From assembly GCA_902792795.1 (NCBI GenBank), contig CADBBB010000005.1, positions 123,578 to 187,577 on the forward strand: DNA of 64,000 nt, read 5' to 3'. The position numbers and the translations under genes are program-made. Numbering within the stretch: position 1 is the stretch's first letter; each line of letters opens with the position of its first letter. This DNA comes from an uncultured Spirochaetaceae bacterium (lineage in GTDB: Bacteria; Spirochaetota; Spirochaetia; Treponematales; Treponemataceae). The notes beneath the pieces are model-generated. The model had not been told where the DNA came from. It worked only from the letters and a program-made list of their open reading frames with translations, and did no database searches. Below are positions 6,754 to 58,105 of the stretch, piece after piece.

Positions 6754-6900
6754 ATCAATATTTTACAGTATTTTTGCGTAAATTGCTAGTTTTTTTGACC
6801 AAAATATCAAAATTGACCTATTAAATGTTAAATTCGCCGCTTGCAAAATTCCCAATGCGCGCTAAATTCGACCTATCAAAAGACAAAAAAGGAGGTCTTT

Positions 6901-7659
6901 ATGAAAGTTGTAGGAATGACTAAAATCGCGGCCCTTTTGGCGGCCTCGGCGCTGGCACTTTTTTCTTGCGCCAAGAAAGAAGCCAAGATTGATTTTGGAA
7001 ACGGCGTTTCCATCGGAATCGTGGAAATCCCGGACAACAATTTTTGCATCACAAAGACAGAAGTCACCCAAGACGTTTACCAAGCCGTCACCGGCGAAAA
7101 TCCTTCCAAGGAGCAGGGAGACAAATTTCCAGTTGAATCTGTAAGCTGGTACGACGCGATTGTCTTTTGCAACAAATTGAGCGCCCTGCGGCAAAAGACT
7201 CCCTGCTACAGCGTGAACGGCTCGACCAACCCCGCCGACTGGGACTACGCTCCCCACCAAAACCAAAAAATCGCGGGCAAAATCGAATTCAACCCCAGCG
7301 CGGGCGGCTACCGAATTCCCACCCTGGACGAATGGGACGTGGCGATTCGCGGCGGCGAAAAATTCAAGTACTCAGGAAGCGACGACTTGGACAGCGTCGC
7401 TTGGACGGACTGCAACTCAGGCGGAAAGTTGCACCAAGTTGCCCAGCTAAAGCCCAACGCCTTTGGAATCTACGACATGTCCGGCAACGTCTTTGAATGG
7501 GTTTGGAGCGAGCGCGCCGACGGAAGCCGCTACTACTGCGGCGGAAGCTTCTTTGACGCCGCCCGAGCCGCAAAATGTTACAACAAAGAATTGAACTACG
7601 CCTCCGGCCAGTTCAAAAGCGTTGGCTTCCGCGTCACATGGAACAAACCAACTGCGTAA
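6901..7659 (+). CDS. SUMF1/formylglycine-generating-enzyme-like lipoprotein
   Basis: 252 residues from the ATG at 6901, which has a textbook AAAGGAGGTCTTT before it. The N-terminus MKVVGMTKIAALLAASALAL with FSCAKK is a lipoprotein signal. The rest is a single FGE-sulfatase domain: the family opening FCITKTEVTQDVYQAVTGEN, then FPVESVSWYDAIVFCNKLSA, GGYRIPTLDEWDVAIRGG, FGIYDMSGNVFEWVW and the closing SVGFRVTW. Whether it makes formylglycine is unclear; many secreted members bind other ligands. I could not confirm the paired active-site cysteines of true FGE. A TTGCAA-16-TAAATT promoter is visible upstream near 6840-6868. Confidence 0.88.
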   Translation: MKVVGMTKIAALLAASALALFSCAKKEAKIDFGNGVSIGIVEIPDNNFCITKTEVTQDVYQAVTGENPSKEQGDKFPVESVSWYDAIVFCNKLSALRQKTPCYSVNGSTNPADWDYAPHQNQKIAGKIEFNPSAGGYRIPTLDEWDVAIRGGEKFKYSGSDDLDSVAWTDCNSGGKLHQVAQLKPNAFGIYDMSGNVFEWVWSERADGSRYYCGGSFFDAARAAKCYNKELNYASGQFKSVGFRVTWNKPTA

Positions 7660-7808
7660 ACGGCTCCCAGTCGCGTTCAGCATCGCGGAACCGCTAGCTA
7701 GCGTCGCTCCACGCTGCCCCGCCTTGAAACTATTCTATCTGCCGCTAACGCGGCAGGCGCGGGCAGAGTGTTTCCGCAATGCTGCCCGCTTCTTCGCGCC
7801 GTTTTCGG
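7659..7808. repeat. Structured ~150-nt dispersed repeat, copy A
   Basis: Begins AACGGCTCCCAGTCGCG just inside the stop codon of the SUMF1-like gene and ends CTTCGCGCCGTTTT. It shares the blocks CCGCTAGCTAGCGTCGCT and CTTGAAACTATTCTA with copies at 35899 and 56198. Inner hairpin CTGCCGC-TAAC-GCGGCAG; outer stem CAGCATCGCGGAA pairs with TTCCGCAATGCTG. The inverted AAACG and CGTTTT ends bound the element. Confidence 0.75.
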
Positions 7809-7861: not shown

Positions 7862-9043
7862 GTGCTTAAATTTACAATTACCGACTTATTGGACGCAGAT
7901 TCGCTTCAGATAATCCAAGACGGCTTTGAGCGTTTTACAGGCTTAAAGGCGCTTGTGGCCGACGCGTCGGCAAATTCCGTAACAGAAGGAAGCGACTTTT
8001 CCGACTTTATAAGCAGAATCCTAGTCTACGACGAAGACGCCAACGAACCCGTAATCAAAAGAGAAATCCTAAACCTTCTCCGCGCTGGAAAAACAATCAC
8101 TCTAAAAAACGAATTGGAGTCCTTTGACGCGGCCAGCCCCCTTCTATTGGAAGGCGAGCTTATAGGCCTCTTTATTTGCGGCCCCGACATAGAGAAAAAA
8201 CAAAAAGTTCCCGAAGCGGCCGTTTCGCGCGGCTCAAAATTTTTGGCCTCAATCGCGGAAGCGCTTTCGCAAATGGCCTACGCCTCAAGCCTTTCGCTCA
8301 ACAACTCGCACGCCATGCAGCAAAGCGCGCTGTCCGCTTCCGCCGCCGTCACAGAGACCGCGCTTAAAATGAAGCAGTCAATGCAGGAATGGGTCGAGGT
8401 TATGAGCGAGGCGCTGGAATCCAACGACCTTGAGCTTATCAAAAAGCAGGTGGAACAAATTTTGGAAACAGGCACGGACGTCTACACGGCCGTAAGCGAT
8501 TCCGTCCAAAACATACAGGACAAAATAGGCTCCACCCACTTGGTTGAAACCGAATACAGCGTCCATCGCTTGGTTCCCCACTACATCGAGCAGGCCAAAA
8601 AAATTATGGGCGACAAGTCGCCGGATTTTTCGTACACAATCGCGGACGCCGTTCCCATGTACTTGTTCGGCGACAACGACCGCATTTCGCAAATCGTTTA
8701 CTTGCTCTTTAAAAGCAGCGCCCGCCAGCTGGAAAGCGGCAAGGCCTCTTTGGACATCACCGCGCAAAAAAATTCTTACGCAACGATACTCATTTTTAAA
8801 TTCACTGACACCACGGCCGGCTTTTCAGATGAAGACCTTGAGGCCTTGCAAATGTTCATCGAAACCGGCGACCAGTCCTACTTGGAGGACACAAGCGTAA
8901 AGGGAATGGGATATCGCACAATCAACAGAATCGTCCAACAAATGTTCGGACAAATAAATTTTGAAATTACTTCCGACACTGAGATGGAATTTGTGATAAA
9001 AATTCCGCAGCTGGAAGTTGAGGTGGAAGAGCTTGGCAGTTGA
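7862..9043 (+). CDS. PocR-like sensor with degenerate histidine-kinase-like C-terminus
   Basis: 393 residues, GTG start. Residues about 5-150 resemble the PocR ligand-binding domain (FTITDLLDADSLQIIQDGFE, then RFTGLKALVADAS and LLEGELIGLFICGPD) but lack the cysteines many members have. A helical segment with coiled-coil character follows (about 150-220). The C-terminal ~140 residues look like a worn GHKL ATPase fold: FGDNDRISQIVYLLFKSSAR in the N-box position, FTDTTAGFSDEDL, and VKGMGYRTINRIVQQMFGQI. I see no phosphorylatable H-box His. The next gene, an EAL phosphodiesterase, overlaps its end, so this probably senses a ligand and controls that enzyme. The PocR assignment is moderate and the kinase-fold assignment tentative. 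Confidence 0.72.
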   Translation: MLKFTITDLLDADSLQIIQDGFERFTGLKALVADASANSVTEGSDFSDFISRILVYDEDANEPVIKREILNLLRAGKTITLKNELESFDAASPLLLEGELIGLFICGPDIEKKQKVPEAAVSRGSKFLASIAEALSQMAYASSLSLNNSHAMQQSALSASAAVTETALKMKQSMQEWVEVMSEALESNDLELIKKQVEQILETGTDVYTAVSDSVQNIQDKIGSTHLVETEYSVHRLVPHYIEQAKKIMGDKSPDFSYTIADAVPMYLFGDNDRISQIVYLLFKSSARQLESGKASLDITAQKNSYATILIFKFTDTTAGFSDEDLEALQMFIETGDQSYLEDTSVKGMGYRTINRIVQQMFGQINFEITSDTEMEFVIKIPQLEVEVEELGS

Positions 9044-12287: not shown

Positions 12288-12362
12288 TGAGACTGACACG
12301 ATTCGAACGTGCGACCTCCACCTCCGCAGGGTGGCGCTCTAATCCAGCTGAGCTACAATCTC
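12288..12362 (-). tRNA. tRNA-Arg (anticodon GCG)
   Basis: 75 nt including the discriminator A; CCA is not encoded. Acceptor GAGATTG pairs with CAGTCTC (one G-U). The D arm is GCTC-AGCTGGATTA-GAGC. The anticodon stem is CCACC/GGTGG with loop CTGCGGA, giving anticodon GCG, which reads CGC and CGU as arginine. T arm GCACG-TTCGAAT-CGTGT. A20 and A73, arginine identity bases in other bacteria, are present. Most bacteria read these codons with an ACG (inosine) anticodon, so GCG is notable. Confidence 0.93.
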
Positions 12363-12383
12363 GTACAAGCGGAGCTTGTAAAA

Positions 12384-12469
12384 CGGAAGCGACAGGAGTC
12401 GAACCTGCCGGGCCCAAATTGGAACCCACGGATTAGCAATCCGGCGTATTACCGCTCTACCACGCTTCC
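12384..12469 (-). tRNA. tRNA-Ser (anticodon GCT)
   Basis: 86 nt with acceptor GGAAGCG/CGCTTCC, discriminator G as in other tRNA-Ser, anticodon loop TTGCTAA (GCT, reads AGC/AGU) and a long variable arm, the class II hallmark of serine. It lies 21 bases upstream of tRNA-Arg in the same transcript. Confidence 0.94.
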
Positions 12470-12476
12470 AAATATG

Positions 12477-12561
12477 CGGAGCGAGAGGGATTTGAACCCC
12501 CGGTACCTTGCGGTACAACGGTTTTCAAGACCGCCGCGTTCGACCACTCTGCCATCGCTCC
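12477..12561 (-). tRNA. tRNA-Ser (anticodon TGA)
   Basis: 85 nt with acceptor GGAGCGA/TCGCTCC, discriminator G, anticodon stem GCGGT/ACCGT (one G-U pair) with loop CTTGAAA (TGA, reads UCA and UCG), and a long variable arm with stem GTACC-GCAA-GGTAC. It is the first gene of the three-tRNA transcript, seven bases before the next tRNA. Confidence 0.94.
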
Positions 12562-35115: not shown

Positions 35116-35898
35116 TTGATTCTTTCCGGCTTTCACGCGGTGGAAGAGCGCGTCCGCTCGGCGGCCGAAAACCCGGCCTCCGCCGCAAAAATGAAAATTC
35201 TTTTCTCCAAGCCAGGCCCGCGCGTCAAAAAAATTTTGGAGCTTGCCAAAAGCGCCGGAATCCATTGCGAACAGAGCGACAACAAGACGCTTGACCAAAT
35301 GGCGGACGAACACCGCGGGATTGTTTTGGAAATCCAAGGGCAAGACACGGCCGCAAGCAACGTCGTTGACTTTGACGCTTGGCTGGAACGCTTCAAGACC
35401 GCTCGCGACGGCCAAGAAGGCCAAAAGCGGACGACTGTCGTAATCCTTGACTCGGTGACCGACCCGCACAATGTTGGCGCGGTCTTGAGAAGCGCCGACC
35501 AATTTGGCGCCGCGCTCGTCCTCCTGCCCGAAAGGCGCGGGGCCAACGACATAGCCCAAAACGAAGTCATAGCGCGGGCCAGCGCCGGCGCGGCCTCTTG
35601 GGTTCCAGTAAGCGTAGTGACAAACCTTGTCCGCGCGGCCCAGCAATTGAAGGACGCGGGTTTTTGGATTTACGGCGCCGATGCCGGCGGCGTTCAAGTC
35701 CAAGACGGAACGTTCGCGCAAAATTCAGTCCTTGTAATGGGCAGCGAAGGCAGCGGAATCGCGCGGCTCTTAAAAGAACAGTGCGACACAATCGTTTCCA
35801 TTCCCACATGCGGCCGCATAGACAGCCTAAACGTCTCAGTGGCGGCCGGCGTGTTGCTGTACGAGATTTACCGGCAATCACTTTTAAACAAACAATAA
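35116..35898 (+). CDS. rlmB: 23S rRNA (guanosine-2'-O-)-methyltransferase, SpoU/TrmH family
   Basis: 260 residues, TTG start directly after the YchJ-like gene. An N-terminal RNA-binding substrate domain (ILSGFHAVEERV, HRGIVLEIQG) precedes the SPOUT knot with its three motifs: ILDSVTDPHNVGAVLRSADQ with the catalytic Asn/Arg, VLVMGSEGSGIARL, and IPTCGRIDSLNVSVAAGVLL. It uses S-adenosylmethionine to 2'-O-methylate a 23S rRNA guanosine; among SPOUT members RlmB fits best on length and the FHAVEE start, but a closely related tRNA/rRNA target cannot be excluded. Confidence 0.9.
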   Translation: MILSGFHAVEERVRSAAENPASAAKMKILFSKPGPRVKKILELAKSAGIHCEQSDNKTLDQMADEHRGIVLEIQGQDTAASNVVDFDAWLERFKTARDGQEGQKRTTVVILDSVTDPHNVGAVLRSADQFGAALVLLPERRGANDIAQNEVIARASAGAASWVPVSVVTNLVRAAQQLKDAGFWIYGADAGGVQVQDGTFAQNSVLVMGSEGSGIARLLKEQCDTIVSIPTCGRIDSLNVSVAAGVLLYEIYRQSLLNKQ

Positions 35899-36054
35899 CA
35901 AAACGCTCCCGGTCACGATTGCGTCGTTGCGGCACCGCTTGCTAACGGCGCTACACACTGCTTGCGCTTGAAACTATTTTACTTCGCCGCTATCGCGGCG
36001 GCGCAAGCAGAGTGTTGCCGCAAGCCGCCTCGTTTCCTTGCGCGTTTTTTATTG
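35899..36054. repeat. Structured ~150-nt dispersed repeat, copy B
   Basis: Fills most of the gap between rlmB and the glycosidase-like gene. Begins AAAACGCTCCCGGTC, ends TTGCGCGTTTTTTATT. Nested stems: TTGCGGCA with TGCCGCAA, CTGCTTGCGC with GCGCAAGCAG, and GCCGC-TATC-GCGGC, with the shared block CTTGAAACTATTTTA between. The same stems in copies A and C have different bases but still pair. Confidence 0.78.
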
Positions 36055-54228: not shown

Positions 54229-54330
54229 TGAGCCTAGGCGCTATGCGGCGCTGCGCCGCAAAACCCCGCCAGAGCCGGAAGGCAGCAACGGTATGCGGAT
54301 GCAGCGCGCGCCGTAGTATGCCTAGGCTCA
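54229..54330 (+). ncRNA. ffs: Signal recognition particle RNA (4.5S, small bacterial type)
   Basis: About 102 nt folding into one long hairpin: TGAGCCTAGGC at the 5' end pairs with GCCTAGGCTCA at the 3' end, and the apical part has GCCAGAGCCGGAAGGCAGCA followed by ACGG, the universally conserved Ffh-binding loops capped by GGAA. A TATATT box seven bases upstream (54216-54221) with TAGACA before it forms the promoter. It targets nascent membrane proteins with Ffh. glmS begins 25 bases after it. Confidence 0.92.
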
Positions 54331-54355
54331 ACCTTTATTGCGCGAGGAAAAAAGT

Positions 54356-56197
54356 ATGTGCGGAATTGTAGGATATGTGGGGAACGAGCTTGCCACGCCG
54401 ATTTTGATTGAGTCGCTGAAAAAATTGGAATACCGAGGCTACGACTCGGCTGGAATCGCCGTTCTTGACGGCCAAAACATTTTGGTCAGAAAGGCCAAGG
54501 GCGCGCTAAAGGAATTGGAAAAGCGCATCGCCGGCGAAACGATTAAAGGCTCGATTGGAATCGGCCACACTCGCTGGGCCACCCACGGCGAGCCTAGCGA
54601 CGTCAACGCGCACCCTCAGACAAACGTAAGCGGCTCAATCGCGGTTGTCCACAACGGCATCATCGAAAATTATTTGGAATTAAAGGAATGGCTCCAAGCG
54701 CAGGGAATCGTGTTCCGAAGCCAAACCGACACAGAAGTAATCGCAAACCTCATAAACTATTACTACACGGAAAGCTCGGACATTTTTAGCGCGGTTCTTT
54801 TGACGCTTTCAAAATTGGAAGGCTCTTACGGCCTTGTCGTTTTGTGCCAAGACTATCCTGACAGAATCATCGCCGCGCGAAAGGAAAGCCCGCTTGTGGT
54901 TGGCCTTGGAAAAGGCGAAAACTTTTTGGCCAGCGACGTTCCCGCGCTTTTAAGCCACACGCGCGAAGTTTACTTTTTGGAAGAAAAAGAGCTTGCCGTG
55001 ATTTATTCCGACCATGTTGACTTGTTCGGAACCGACGGAACAAAACATTCGCGCGCGGCCACCCACATTGAATGGGACGCTTCAAGCGCGGAAAAGGGCG
55101 GCTACGCTCACTTTATGCTAAAGGAAATCCACGAGCAGCCCAAGGCCATGACCGACACTCTTAGGCCGCGCTTGATTCAAAAGGACGGAAAGGCCGTTGA
55201 CATTCACTTTGAGGAACTAAAGGAAAACGTCGATTGGAAAAACGCCGGCCGCGTCGTCATCACCGCTTGCGGAACGGCAAGCTACGCCGGACAAATCGCA
55301 AAGTACGCCTTTGAAAAATTCGCGCGCCTTTCGACGGAAGTGGACATCGCTTCGGAATACCGCTACCGAAATCCAATCATGAACAAGAGCGACATCTTTA
55401 TCGTAATCAGCCAGTCCGGCGAAACCGCCGACACTTTGGCGGCCATGCGCTTGGCCAAAGGCGCCGGCGCCAAGGTGATTGCGATAACAAACTGCGTTGG
55501 CTCAACCGTAAGCCGCGAGGCCGACTATGTGATTTACACTAGAGCCGGCGCCGAGATTTCGGTCGCCTCGACCAAGGCGTACACGACGCAGCTTTTGTGC
55601 CTTTACCTTTTGGCCTTGAAGGCGGGAATGGAGCGCTCGACAATCACGCAAGCGGAATACGAAAAGTCTTTGGCCGCTTTGGAAAGCGTTCCGCAAAAGA
55701 TAGAAGAGATTTTAAAGAACGAGAGCGCCGTCCAAAAGTTGGCAAGCCATCAGTTCAACAAGGAAAAGATTTTCTACATTGGCCGCCGCTTTGATTCCGC
55801 TTCCTGCTTGGAAAGCGCGCTAAAGCTAAAGGAAGTGAGCTACATGCACAGCGAAGCCTTTGCCGCGGGTGAACTCAAGCACGGTCCCATCGCGCTTGTT
55901 GACAAGTCTACGCTTGTCGTTGCCATCGCTAGTGACCCGGAATTGTACGAAAAGACAAAGTCCAACGTCGTTCAAGTAAAGACACGCGGCGCATACACGC
56001 TTGTGATTACCCAAGACGGCGGCGAGATTTTCTCGGACACGGCGGACGAAATTATGAGAATACCCAGCATTGATTCCGCGTTCGCGCCGATGCTTACGAT
56101 AATTCCCGCGCAACTCTTTGCCTACTACTGCGCCGTGCTTCGCGGAAACGATCCCGACAAGCCGCGCAATTTGGCCAAGTCAGTTACTGTCGAGTAA
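54356..56197 (+). CDS. glmS: Glutamine--fructose-6-phosphate aminotransferase (isomerizing)
   Basis: 613 residues, beginning MCGIVGYVGNELA with the N-terminal nucleophile Cys exposed after Met removal. The glutaminase domain (to about 240) is followed by two SIS sugar-isomerase domains: CGTASYAGQIAKYAFEKFA, SQSGETADTLAAMRLAKGAG, STKAYTTQLL, and the second from about 460 (GRRFDSASCLESALKLKEVS, EAFAAGELKHGPIALVD). It ends NLAKSVTVE, as usual. It makes glucosamine-6-phosphate for cell-wall synthesis. No glmS ribozyme is seen upstream; that space is taken by SRP RNA. Confidence 0.97.
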   Translation: MCGIVGYVGNELATPILIESLKKLEYRGYDSAGIAVLDGQNILVRKAKGALKELEKRIAGETIKGSIGIGHTRWATHGEPSDVNAHPQTNVSGSIAVVHNGIIENYLELKEWLQAQGIVFRSQTDTEVIANLINYYYTESSDIFSAVLLTLSKLEGSYGLVVLCQDYPDRIIAARKESPLVVGLGKGENFLASDVPALLSHTREVYFLEEKELAVIYSDHVDLFGTDGTKHSRAATHIEWDASSAEKGGYAHFMLKEIHEQPKAMTDTLRPRLIQKDGKAVDIHFEELKENVDWKNAGRVVITACGTASYAGQIAKYAFEKFARLSTEVDIASEYRYRNPIMNKSDIFIVISQSGETADTLAAMRLAKGAGAKVIAITNCVGSTVSREADYVIYTRAGAEISVASTKAYTTQLLCLYLLALKAGMERSTITQAEYEKSLAALESVPQKIEEILKNESAVQKLASHQFNKEKIFYIGRRFDSASCLESALKLKEVSYMHSEAFAAGELKHGPIALVDKSTLVVAIASDPELYEKTKSNVVQVKTRGAYTLVITQDGGEIFSDTADEIMRIPSIDSAFAPMLTIIPAQLFAYYCAVLRGNDPDKPRNLAKSVTVE

Positions 56198-56359
56198 ATA
56201 AAAAACGCTCCCAGTCGCGGTTGCGTCAGGCGGAATCGCTAGCTAGCGTCGCTACACACATATTGCGCCTTGTAACTATTTTAGTCTGCCGCTAATCGCG
56301 GCAGGCGCAACATGAGTGTTTCCGCCCGCCGCCCCGCTCCTTCGCGCGTTTTTTATTTA
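56198..56359. repeat. Structured ~150-nt dispersed repeat, copy C
   Basis: Fills the gap between glmS and the convergent esterase gene and supplies that gene's stop codon. It begins AAATAAAAAACGCTCCCAG and ends CGCGCGTTTTTTATTTAA, so the ends are inverted copies. Stems: GGCGGAA with TTCCGCC, TTGCGCC with GGCGCAA, CTGCCGC-TAATC-GCGGCAG. Shared blocks CGCTAGCTAGCGTCGCTACAC and TTGTAACTATTTTA. Position between convergent genes suggests it also stops transcription both ways. Confidence 0.78.
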
Positions 56360-57405
56360 ATCGCCGCTAGCAAATAATCCGCGGCGGCTTGCTGCTGAAT
56401 CTCTGTGGGGTGCGAAAGCGCCCCTGTTTTTTTCATGTCGATTTCTGGAAGCAATACATACTGAACGCGCTCGTCGCCGCTTTGTTTTTTGTAAGCGTCC
56501 ACGGCGCGCTCGATTTGTTCCGCCAAAATATGGCCAATCATTCCGTAGCACCAAACAATTTTGGCCTTGGGATTTCGCGCGCGGATTTTTGCAAGGAACG
56601 AGATTACGCCCTGCTCAAAAATCTCCGCTATGTCCGGGCGGCTTTGGCACGGCCCTTGGTCGTTCGTGCCCAAATTGATAATTACCCAATCCGGCTCAAA
56701 ATTGGAAAAATCCCACTTGTCCTTGGCTGACTTTCTTTGCATTACCGAGCATATCTCATCGTAGTATTTTGGCAGGGCGTGTTCAAGATTGCAATCGTAG
56801 CCGCAAACCACGCCCCAGCCGCTTTGACTGATTACGTTAAAGTCGGCGCCGAGCCTTTGCGCGATTTCAAAAGCCCAAGTTTTTGTTCCGCCAAAAAATA
56901 TGCTTGTCCAATCCGTTTCGCCTTTGGCGCCGACAGCGCCCTCCCCGCTTGTTATGCTGTCTCCGATAAATTCTATCTTTAGCGGCTGGGGCGTAACGGG
57001 AAGGAGGTCGCCGTCGGTCAAGAGGCTTTTTAGAAGGAAACGATGTTTTGCGTCGTCGCCCATCGCTTGCGTTTCTTTGTAGACGCGGACGTTTTTGACC
57101 TTTTGTCCGTTCATGTTCCTAAAAAGACAAATGTCATTTTTACCCTTGTTCAGCATAAGGCGGGCTGTTTGAAAGCCGTCCACATAAACGCTAATCCACA
57201 CTTCAAAAGTTTCGTAGTCGGATTCAATTTGCGCCCAAAGCTCGGAGCCGTTCGCGTTCACTTCAAAGCCGCTTGCAGTCCAAAAAAAATCCACGCCGGC
57301 TTCGCTTTGCGCGGCGCGGCCCATAATTTTTATAAGCGCGTTTTGCCCGTCTTTTTGTTTTGCCCAAAAGGCTTTTGCCAGTTCATTTGCCAAAAAAGTT
57401 TTCAT
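56353..57405 (-). CDS. SGNH/GDSL esterase, carbohydrate-esterase-family-2 type
   Basis: 350 residues from the ATG at 57405; an upstream in-frame start would overlap the divergent gene and lacks support. The N-terminal ~130 residues form the CE2 jelly-roll (RAAQSEAGVDFFWTASGFEV, VWISVYVDGFQTARLMLNKG), and the C-terminal SGNH domain has IEFIGDSITSGEGAVG with the catalytic Ser, VIINLGTNDQ, and SHPTEIQQQAAADYL with the catalytic His. It removes acetyl groups from plant polysaccharides or oligosaccharides. No signal peptide is seen, so it would act inside the cell. A TATATT box lies six bases before the ATG. Confidence 0.88.
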   Translation of the reverse strand: MKTFLANELAKAFWAKQKDGQNALIKIMGRAAQSEAGVDFFWTASGFEVNANGSELWAQIESDYETFEVWISVYVDGFQTARLMLNKGKNDICLFRNMNGQKVKNVRVYKETQAMGDDAKHRFLLKSLLTDGDLLPVTPQPLKIEFIGDSITSGEGAVGAKGETDWTSIFFGGTKTWAFEIAQRLGADFNVISQSGWGVVCGYDCNLEHALPKYYDEICSVMQRKSAKDKWDFSNFEPDWVIINLGTNDQGPCQSRPDIAEIFEQGVISFLAKIRARNPKAKIVWCYGMIGHILAEQIERAVDAYKKQSGDERVQYVLLPEIDMKKTGALSHPTEIQQQAAADYLLAAIK

Positions 57406-57439
57406 AAACAAAATATAGCGCTTTGCCGAAAATAATTCT

Positions 57440-58105
57440 ATGAGCGAAAAAATCTTTTTAAAATGTTTTTTGGCGGGATTTTTGGGCGCGGCGCTTTTAG
57501 TTGTCATGGCCATTTTCCCTTCCTGCAAATCAACGCAGCAAGCGGTTCAAGAAAAAGAAGAAATTCCTGCCCTTGACGAGCCGATTGTAACTTATGTCAA
57601 TACCGCCATCAACAAGGCGGACGGAAAAATCTCCACGATAATGCTTTTCAATTCGATAAAGGAAGTTGTGGCCATTCATCCCATTTCGCGCGTCCGCTAC
57701 AATTTGAGCGAGTCAGACTACAAGTACGACCCGCAAACGACGGAACTAAAAATCGCTTTGCCTAAATCCGTTCCGTATAAAATCAACGAGCTTGGCTTTC
57801 ACATCGTAGGAGAGGCGGTTTATCCCGGCGTTTTTGTTTTGGCCGGAATCGACGCGGCGCGCGGGGAGCCGGGCGTTTTCTTTGAAGGAAAAGAATCCGT
57901 GGAAGGAACTGACTACACTTACGACAAAGCATCCGCAAGAATTACAAGCCTTGTTCCGCTCAACGTTGACAAAGACTCTTTTGAAATTTGTTGGGCCACA
58001 AAAAACGGCGAAGTGACTTTTTCCAACAATACGCAAAAATACCGCGACGCTTACATAAAGTATTACAACGCTTGGAGCCGCAAAGTCCACATGAGAGGGA
58101 ACTGA
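57440..58105 (+). CDS. Lipoprotein of unknown function
   Basis: 221 residues. N-terminal helix FLAGFLGAALLVVMAIFPSC is a lipoprotein signal with Cys near residue 29. The mature part is strand-rich (IVTYVNTAINKADGKISTIM, ELGFHIVGEAVYPGVFVLAG, EDGTDYTYDK-like turns) and may have two immunoglobulin-like units. I recognise no family. It starts 34 bases from the divergent esterase gene, and the phosphatase gene converges on its 3' end. Confidence 0.78.
   Translation: MSEKIFLKCFLAGFLGAALLVVMAIFPSCKSTQQAVQEKEEIPALDEPIVTYVNTAINKADGKISTIMLFNSIKEVVAIHPISRVRYNLSESDYKYDPQTTELKIALPKSVPYKINELGFHIVGEAVYPGVFVLAGIDAARGEPGVFFEGKESVEGTDYTYDKASARITSLVPLNVDKDSFEICWATKNGEVTFSNNTQKYRDAYIKYYNAWSRKVHMRGN

Follow-up and report, generated by a model that had tools for sequence, protein, structure and literature searches.

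The stretch of DNA that was analysed, 64,000 nucleotides from an uncultured Spirochaetaceae bacterium and called the window in the following, contains three copies (A, B and C) of an intergenic element of about 150 nt (Table 1). The gene preceding copy C is presumably glmS-like. All three copies were found at the sites given by the first-pass annotation, and they align from end to end with a mean column identity of 85%. The three outer stems that it had claimed could be seen in the letters, as could the quoted inner stems, CTGCTTGCGC/GCGCAAGCAG in copy B, TTGCGCC/GGCGCAA in copy C, and CTGCCCCGCC with a near match in copy A. The blocks described as shared are near-identical, not identical, as copy B reads CGCTTGCTAACGGCGCT, and TTGAAACTATTTTA carries one change in copy A and one in copy C. 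The inverted ends AAAACGC/GCGTTTT hold for copies B and C, and copy A has AAACGGC/GCCGTTTT in their place.

Table 1. Element copies, parts of copy C, neighbouring genes and other RNA genes in the window (G000, window's genome)
Feature	Position	Strand	Remarks
Copy A	7658..7806	-	covariance-model match G000:C5:131227-131393, 154 bits
FGE-sulfatase-domain gene	6841-7659	+	neighbour of copy A
PocR/HATPase gene	7862-9043	+	neighbour of copy A
Copy B	35900..36051	-	covariance-model match G000:C5:159469-159637, 170 bits
SpoU-type methylase gene	35116-35898	+	neighbour of copy B
DUF4015 gene		+	neighbour of copy B, downstream
Copy C	56200..56355	-	covariance-model match G000:C5:179771-179941, 178 bits
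SIS/glutamine-amidotransferase gene	54338-56197	+	neighbour of copy C, convergent
GDSL esterase gene	56353-57528	-	neighbour of copy C, convergent
Copy C, conserved outer motif GCTCCCAGTC (plus letters)	56207..56216	-	G.A-type purine mismatches with partner motif on minus strand
Copy C, partner outer motif CTCCTTCGCGC (plus letters)	56337..56347	-	A-T/G-C pair inside motif
Copy C, second helix, left arm GGCGGAA	56229..56235	-	partner 56320-56326; folds, pair counts
Copy C, second helix, right arm TTCCGCC	56320..56326	-	folds, pair counts
Copy C, junction side hairpin CGCTAGCTAGCG	56237..56248	-	letters differ between copies, mostly still self-complementary
Copy C, conserved strand CTTGTAACTATTTTAG (minus CTAAAATAGTTACAAG)	56269..56284	-	outside consensus pairs; alignments
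Copy C, apical hairpin CTGCCGCTAATCGCGGCAG	56286..56304	-	folds; helix 8
Small SRP RNA (RF00169, 69.4 bits)	54232-54330	+	just upstream of gene preceding copy C
Three consecutive tRNA genes	12288-12561	-

Family size and distribution

BLAST identified 40 full or partial copies with E values of 3.8e-8 or better (45 matches in all) in the window's genome, which comprises 2.77 Mb in 158 contigs and is 86% complete. A covariance model, as proposed in the first-pass annotation, was built from the BLAST copies of this genome and searched against the rest of it and against other Treponema genomes. It detected 51 full-length copies of at least 146 bits on both strands, scattered over many contigs and including the three in the window, two rearranged copies of 105.6 and 88.4 bits, and more copies in relatives. 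A first survey found the element in 21 of 36 same-genus genomes (own genome included) and in none of 23 others. A second survey, which covered 146 genomes of the order from 60 genera, detected it in 16, and these belong without exception to the same genus; 28 of the 36 rows listed for this survey were same-genus genomes, and the remaining 110 rows were without a match. Both surveys applied stricter filters and had some genomes in common. A pattern scan matched at least 118 stretches of named genomes, and the 80 matches listed were from Treponema, Candidatus Treponema and spirochaetes, including T. bryantii, T. ruminis, and Treponema sp. JC4 and C6A8 with 54 and 56 copies, respectively. Two virus-like contigs (L212 and L213), identical in their overlap, also carry a copy of the pattern.

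No Rfam family reached its gathering score in the window copies or in six related loci, and only the SRP RNA and the tRNAs of the window were matched. In a relaxed search with copy B, the best sub-threshold match was Spot 42 with 15.5 bits, as against the 80 needed. Integron sites, of which attC sites are folded single strands, were weighed as candidates and set aside, as were group II introns and retrons. Among the clustered neighbours of 213 loci there was no recurrent partner gene, and Pfam assigned the representatives of 8 neighbour clusters to transport, signalling and housekeeping families only.

Conservation of base pairing

The base pairing of the element is likely kept by selection, and the claim of a selected structure is supported by two larger alignments, in which pairing was far above that of shuffled and slid controls; lack of covariation in such an alignment had been named as a possible refutation. 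The first comprised the 40 copies of the window's genome, aligned by sequence with MAFFT and hence independently of the model. Here, 96.7% of 1519 pair cells were paired, compared to 37-54% in slid structures, and double changes occurred in 27 of 38 pairs, compared to 15.5 +/- 1.7 in shuffles. One of five covariation measures, the number of further pair types, was not above shuffles (46 vs 44.1). The second alignment drew 88 matches from 84 loci, made up of 54 of the 80 pattern matches listed, 28 loci from the first survey and 2 viral ones; three of the matches are truncated, and one is the reverse reading of a copy that the set already contained. In this set, which was fitted to the model and so leans towards it, 94.1% of 3242 cells were paired, double changes were found in 36 of 38 pairs, and 552 cells were doubly changed as against 138 +/- 13 in shuffles. 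One pair, located between conserved mismatches, was A-T in 43 and G-C in 41 of the 88 rows, with 2 exceptions and 2 gaps.

Joint double changes may also arise on the DNA level. In that case the element would be a transposon passenger without function, whose arms are kept complementary by template switching at the hairpin during replication or by gene conversion between copies, and no RNA would be selected. Upkeep of a palindrome of this kind would fit the scarcity of G.U intermediates. Over the alignments counted, with some copies present in two of them, 195 cells read as G.U on the minus strand (A.C on plus) vs 98 on the plus strand, beside 8379 Watson-Crick and 233 other cells. A drifting RNA would be expected to show more G.U pairs than this, which speaks against a role as RNA. 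A unit at locus L307 whose inverted arms are long and almost perfect would fit as well. Such processes should, by contrast, wipe out the mismatches conserved in the outer motif, yet the motif GCTYCCRGT recurs in 163 of 244 alignment rows, and one strand outside the consensus pairs is conserved, too. Altogether we regard palindrome upkeep without function as rather doubtful, and further evidence on both of its sides is given below.

Fold and strand preference

As RNA, the plus strands of copies C, B and A were predicted to fold with -66.0, -65.8 and -69.4 kcal/mol, which is 5.6, 3.9 and 5.1 standard deviations below shuffles. The minus strand of copy C was considerably more stable, with -85.1 vs -66.0 kcal/mol as RNA and -53.8 vs -43.9 as DNA. 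This holds for nearly the whole family, since the minus strand was the stabler one in 233 of 236 rows from four alignments (rows shorter than 140 nt excluded), compared to 153 of 317 in a control with flanking stretches. Next to the outer stem, the conserved mismatches oppose two pyrimidines on the plus strand and two purines (G.A, G.G) on the minus strand. The wobble cells likewise lean to the minus strand, and in a hand tally without the pair inside the mismatch motif about 181 (minus) vs 54 (plus) remained; this excess comes in part from a small number of pairs in helix 3, a helix whose register may vary. Palindrome upkeep is strand-blind, yet stability and wobble favour the minus strand. 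The plus-strand reading of the first-pass annotation is thus the less likely one, and the folds suggest that the element would most likely work as RNA from the minus strand.

Transposon ends and an ISAs1-type partner

In several relatives the core is located inside transposons that have terminal repeats of 19 bp and target duplications of 10 bp and mostly measure 212-217 bp. The repeat unit reaches beyond the core to perfect ends CAGGGCNNNCGCATTATAA in some of them, and ends of the form CAGGGC...CGCATTATAA flank the core on both sides in several. With one mismatch allowed, the terminal end was detected in 30 of 59 same-genus genomes; 196 cases came from a single genome (G010), in which the reversed-pattern control gave none. 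Among the loci examined, 49 distinct units of 120-460 bp were bounded by the terminal repeat with at most two mismatches. Of these 49 units, 24 are flanked by a 10-bp repeat that agrees in 9 or more positions, 19 of them by an exact one, as against 1 of 2352 control pairings.

Such terminal ends pointed to the ISAs1 family. The ISAs1-associated domain PF13808 had matches in 9 of 59 genomes, 6 of them above cut-off, and none in the window's genome. One locus, L334, contains an open 384-residue ISAs1 transposase (NF033564, E 1.3e-107; PF13808, PF01609) between family-type ends that differ from the terminal repeat by 2 and 0 mismatches; matching flanks were not seen outside these ends. A stretch of 3.1 kb between two terminal repeats (L304) was rejected as an autonomous transposon, as it consists of two small units flanking an operon which, read from its letters, encodes a putative amino-acid ABC transporter.

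The location of the core within transposon units in several genomes would be explained if the hairpin were a DNA structure required by the ISAs1 transposase. We consider this very improbable. In the end stretches of the transposase unit L334 the terminal repeats are present and core motifs were not seen, the unit L319 has a different interior and still a 9-of-10 target duplication, the core also occurs in T. bryantii SIG99 within units of about 650 bp that end differently, and it remains intact in genomes that have lost most of the ends. Since units with other interiors exist, the core seems dispensable for movement.

The units of about 650 bp, which carry the core and a second conserved region, were seen at L102, L147, L148, L151 and L182, four of which belong to T. 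bryantii SIG99; their terminal repeats differ from those above, with ends like TACGATTAAATTAAACA. An outward-facing TATAAT is present in the terminal repeat of L310-L315 and similar units, each of which may carry weak promoters at both ends. In the window's genome, a sequence beginning like AAAACGCGTAGGGAGAAG adjoins several copies (L031, L036, L026, L074) and perhaps belongs to the same superfamily.

Settled copies and shared sites

The suggestion that the element is mobile holds for the family, with its terminal repeats, 10-bp target duplications and ISAs1 partner, and finds no counterpart in the window copies. Even at best they differ from the terminal repeat in 7 to 11 of its 19 positions, and no 10-bp repeat with at least 9 matches spans any of the three. 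Hence, the IS-type terminal repeats and fixed-length duplication of a MITE are features of the family and not of the window copies alone. Remnants of the ends were detectable in the window's genome, where 13 of 98 copy ends resembled the terminal repeat vs 1 of 98 at a distance, and in two further genomes (G082, 7 of 110 vs 1; G083, 6 of 104 vs 0). Direct repeats at fixed offsets round the copies were not above control in any of these three genomes. The copies in the window's genome keep their fold despite the few end remnants.

For the genes that precede copies B and C, orthologues from 29 other genomes per gene (34 and 36 with a match) were searched with the covariance model over 1.5 kb on each side. 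No element copy was found behind any of them; one copy lies in front of the copy-C gene's orthologue in G034. The two rumen isolates C6A8 and JC4 have 24 copies at sites shared by both flanks (26 pairings, two of which are crosses between neighbouring copies). At three of these sites the two cores agree in every one of 143 nt, beside coding DNA with 80.7, 89.8 and 87.4% identity, which palindrome upkeep would not readily explain. In a group of 11 sites picked by core identity, the cores average 98.1% and the coding DNA 88.6%. At the other 13 sites core identity is 82.9% on average, with entire blocks differing in several of the cores. Overall, the core was more conserved than coding DNA at 16 of 24 sites and than the spacer at 14 of 22, which falls short of a general constraint.

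Changes within the predicted fold were counted in 21 aligned core pairs. The 13 less diverged pairs showed 4 double changes, 27 changes with pairing kept from one side and 22 broken pairs; resident copies do, therefore, gather broken pairs. In the 8 most diverged pairs there were 49 double changes, 24 one-side-kept and 28 broken pairs. This unequal distribution, together with the block-wise replacement of whole hairpins, is consistent with palindrome upkeep. Conversion from one extant copy was rejected as the source of the diverged shared-site cores, as the best paralogue was 83-90% alike for nearly all of them.

In the region 637-874 of locus L085, part of another element type is inserted near the end of a core copy.

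Gene context and orientation

The first-pass annotation had placed the element behind the 3' end of plus-strand genes and considered it as terminator-like. All three window copies do lie 3' of such a gene, a few bases from its stop codon. Across the window's genome the contexts are mixed, counting those copies (49 of 51) for which genes were called to the left and right, and a terminator or 3'-end element as a general rule was not borne out. Convergent contexts were found for 11 of 49 copies in this genome and for 16 of 54 and 14 of 53 in two others, the remainder being divergent or tandem.

A more specific form of this idea is a two-way intrinsic terminator, in which the ends AAAACGC...GCGTTTT would provide a U-run on either strand and copies would have been recruited to end transcription. 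The T-runs that follow the outer stem of copies B and C, the start of the window copies at stop codons and the common convergent contexts agree with it, and an orientation-free terminator would need no strand bias. We nevertheless judge it unlikely, as a terminator scan, which admits short loops only, showed no site overlapping the three copies, the T-runs are missing beside the core in relatives such as L310 to L315, and divergent contexts are frequent (13 of 49 in the window's genome and 21 of 71 in a wider sample). Furthermore, a plain terminator has no need of conserved internal loops.

Orientation was evaluated from simple longest-frame gene calls. Between tandem genes, the minus strand was sense in 18 of 25 cases in G000 (p 0.04), 23 of 29 in G082 (p 0.002) and 28 of 35 in G083 (p 0.0005); the latter two genomes are related and have common sites. 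A general orientation bias, first taken from these three genomes, failed in a wider sample of 75 copies of other genomes, 71 of which had a gene on both sides and from which C6A8 and JC4 were excluded wherever they could be told by name. Here the minus strand was sense in 21 and antisense in 16 of 37 tandem cases (p 0.51). In an earlier sample, 26 copies of other genomes with less strict gene calls, it was sense in 3 cases and antisense in 7. The bias is present in some genomes and seems not to be a family trait. Its absence in the wider sample lowers the odds of an RNA function and suits palindrome upkeep. In copies A and B, the minus strand is antisense to both neighbours.

Relation to known repeats

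According to the accessible text of PMC10969869, the MITEs QMITE2, Correia and ERIC are short, non-coding and multicopy, with IS-like terminal repeats, target duplications and stable folded transcripts, and Correia and ERIC copies affect mRNA processing or decay. The Treponema element is likewise short, non-coding, folded and present in many copies, and its family has IS-like ends and duplications. It differs from the MITEs as portrayed there in the genus-wide covariation of its core, the better folding of one strand, and the association of the core with two or more kinds of transposon ends, or with none. In its behaviour the element is like a structured bacterial MITE, of an unusual variant.

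BOX, RUP and SPRITE of Streptococcus pneumoniae are described in the accessible text of PMC3049150 as intergenic, dispersed and strongly folded, with a modular BOX; they likely affect co-transcribed genes and are old insertions with slow turnover. Compared by description, the Treponema element resembles them in being intergenic, dispersed, modular and folded. In contrast to them, as far as that text goes, it combines several interiors with one outer motif and has an identified ISAs1 source; the same text makes no mention of compensatory change or covariation.

The likeness to the ISAs1 family lies in the terminal repeats of the Treponema units, which match those of the transposase unit L334, whereas the Treponema core has no transposase and was not seen in the end stretches of L334. 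HEARO and omega-RNA are mobile structured RNAs with stand-alone copies. The Treponema element shares with them a structured element on mobile DNA and stand-alone copies, and differs in matching no Rfam family at threshold. No earlier description of the element was found in the literature searched, which had most subscription papers outside its reach.

A candidate cis-acting RNA hairpin

Our preferred explanation, itself somewhat short of probable, is that a hairpin of about 150 nt was spread by ISAs1-type transposons and retained as a minus-strand RNA acting in cis as RNA punctuation. The elements likely spread inside small ISAs1-type transposons and likely then lost the transposon ends; the window copies, too, would have arrived by transposition. 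If transcribed, the minus strand is predicted to fold into a long hairpin with a three-way junction, which is likely the reason for its retention and would be its working form. Closed near its base by G.A purine pairs, the hairpin would act in cis on its transcript and define or shield an mRNA end, by holding up 3'-to-5' nucleases or as a cleavage site for a double-strand RNase. The punctuation job is the least certain step; we infer it from the fold, the retention, and the roles reported for Correia, ERIC and BOX.

Covariation, minus-strand preference, transposon ends, the identical cores at shared sites and the kept fold argue for this explanation, and the sense bias of the minus strand in three genomes had hinted in the same direction. 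Arguments against it are the missing orientation bias in the wider sample, the antisense position of the minus strand in copies A and B, the broken pairs in resident copies, the shared-site comparison with the core ahead of coding DNA at 16 of 24 sites, the neighbour genes, none of which recurred so as to point to a partner, the covariation measure at shuffle level, the concentration of wobble pairs in helix 3 and the window copies without transposon ends.

In a bolder and hardly likely variant, the element would be an RNA domain common to the genus, which is carried along by transposons and comes to rest between genes, and a dedicated Treponema protein would recognise it by its G.A-closed base. 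If true, transposition would have distributed this protein-read domain, with its interchangeable inner modules, to about 50 transcripts as one shared point of post-transcriptional control.

Short bacterial repeats are often dismissed as junk, and functional claims rest on single insertions. The present family offers an ISAs1 source, fresh-looking insertions, settled genomes and two isolates with 24 shared sites, and thereby makes it testable whether a transposon RNA hairpin becomes a host control element. The element would also give RNA catalogues a new family for Treponema, a genus of rumen and gut.

Some loci of the window's genome (L087-L092) have the outer motif in common with the element and different interiors, which by eye fall into one type in L087, L089 and L090, a second in L088, and a third in L091 and L092. 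They are candidate members of further families, as are L041, which has the start motif, and L093, in which the flanking repeat is present.
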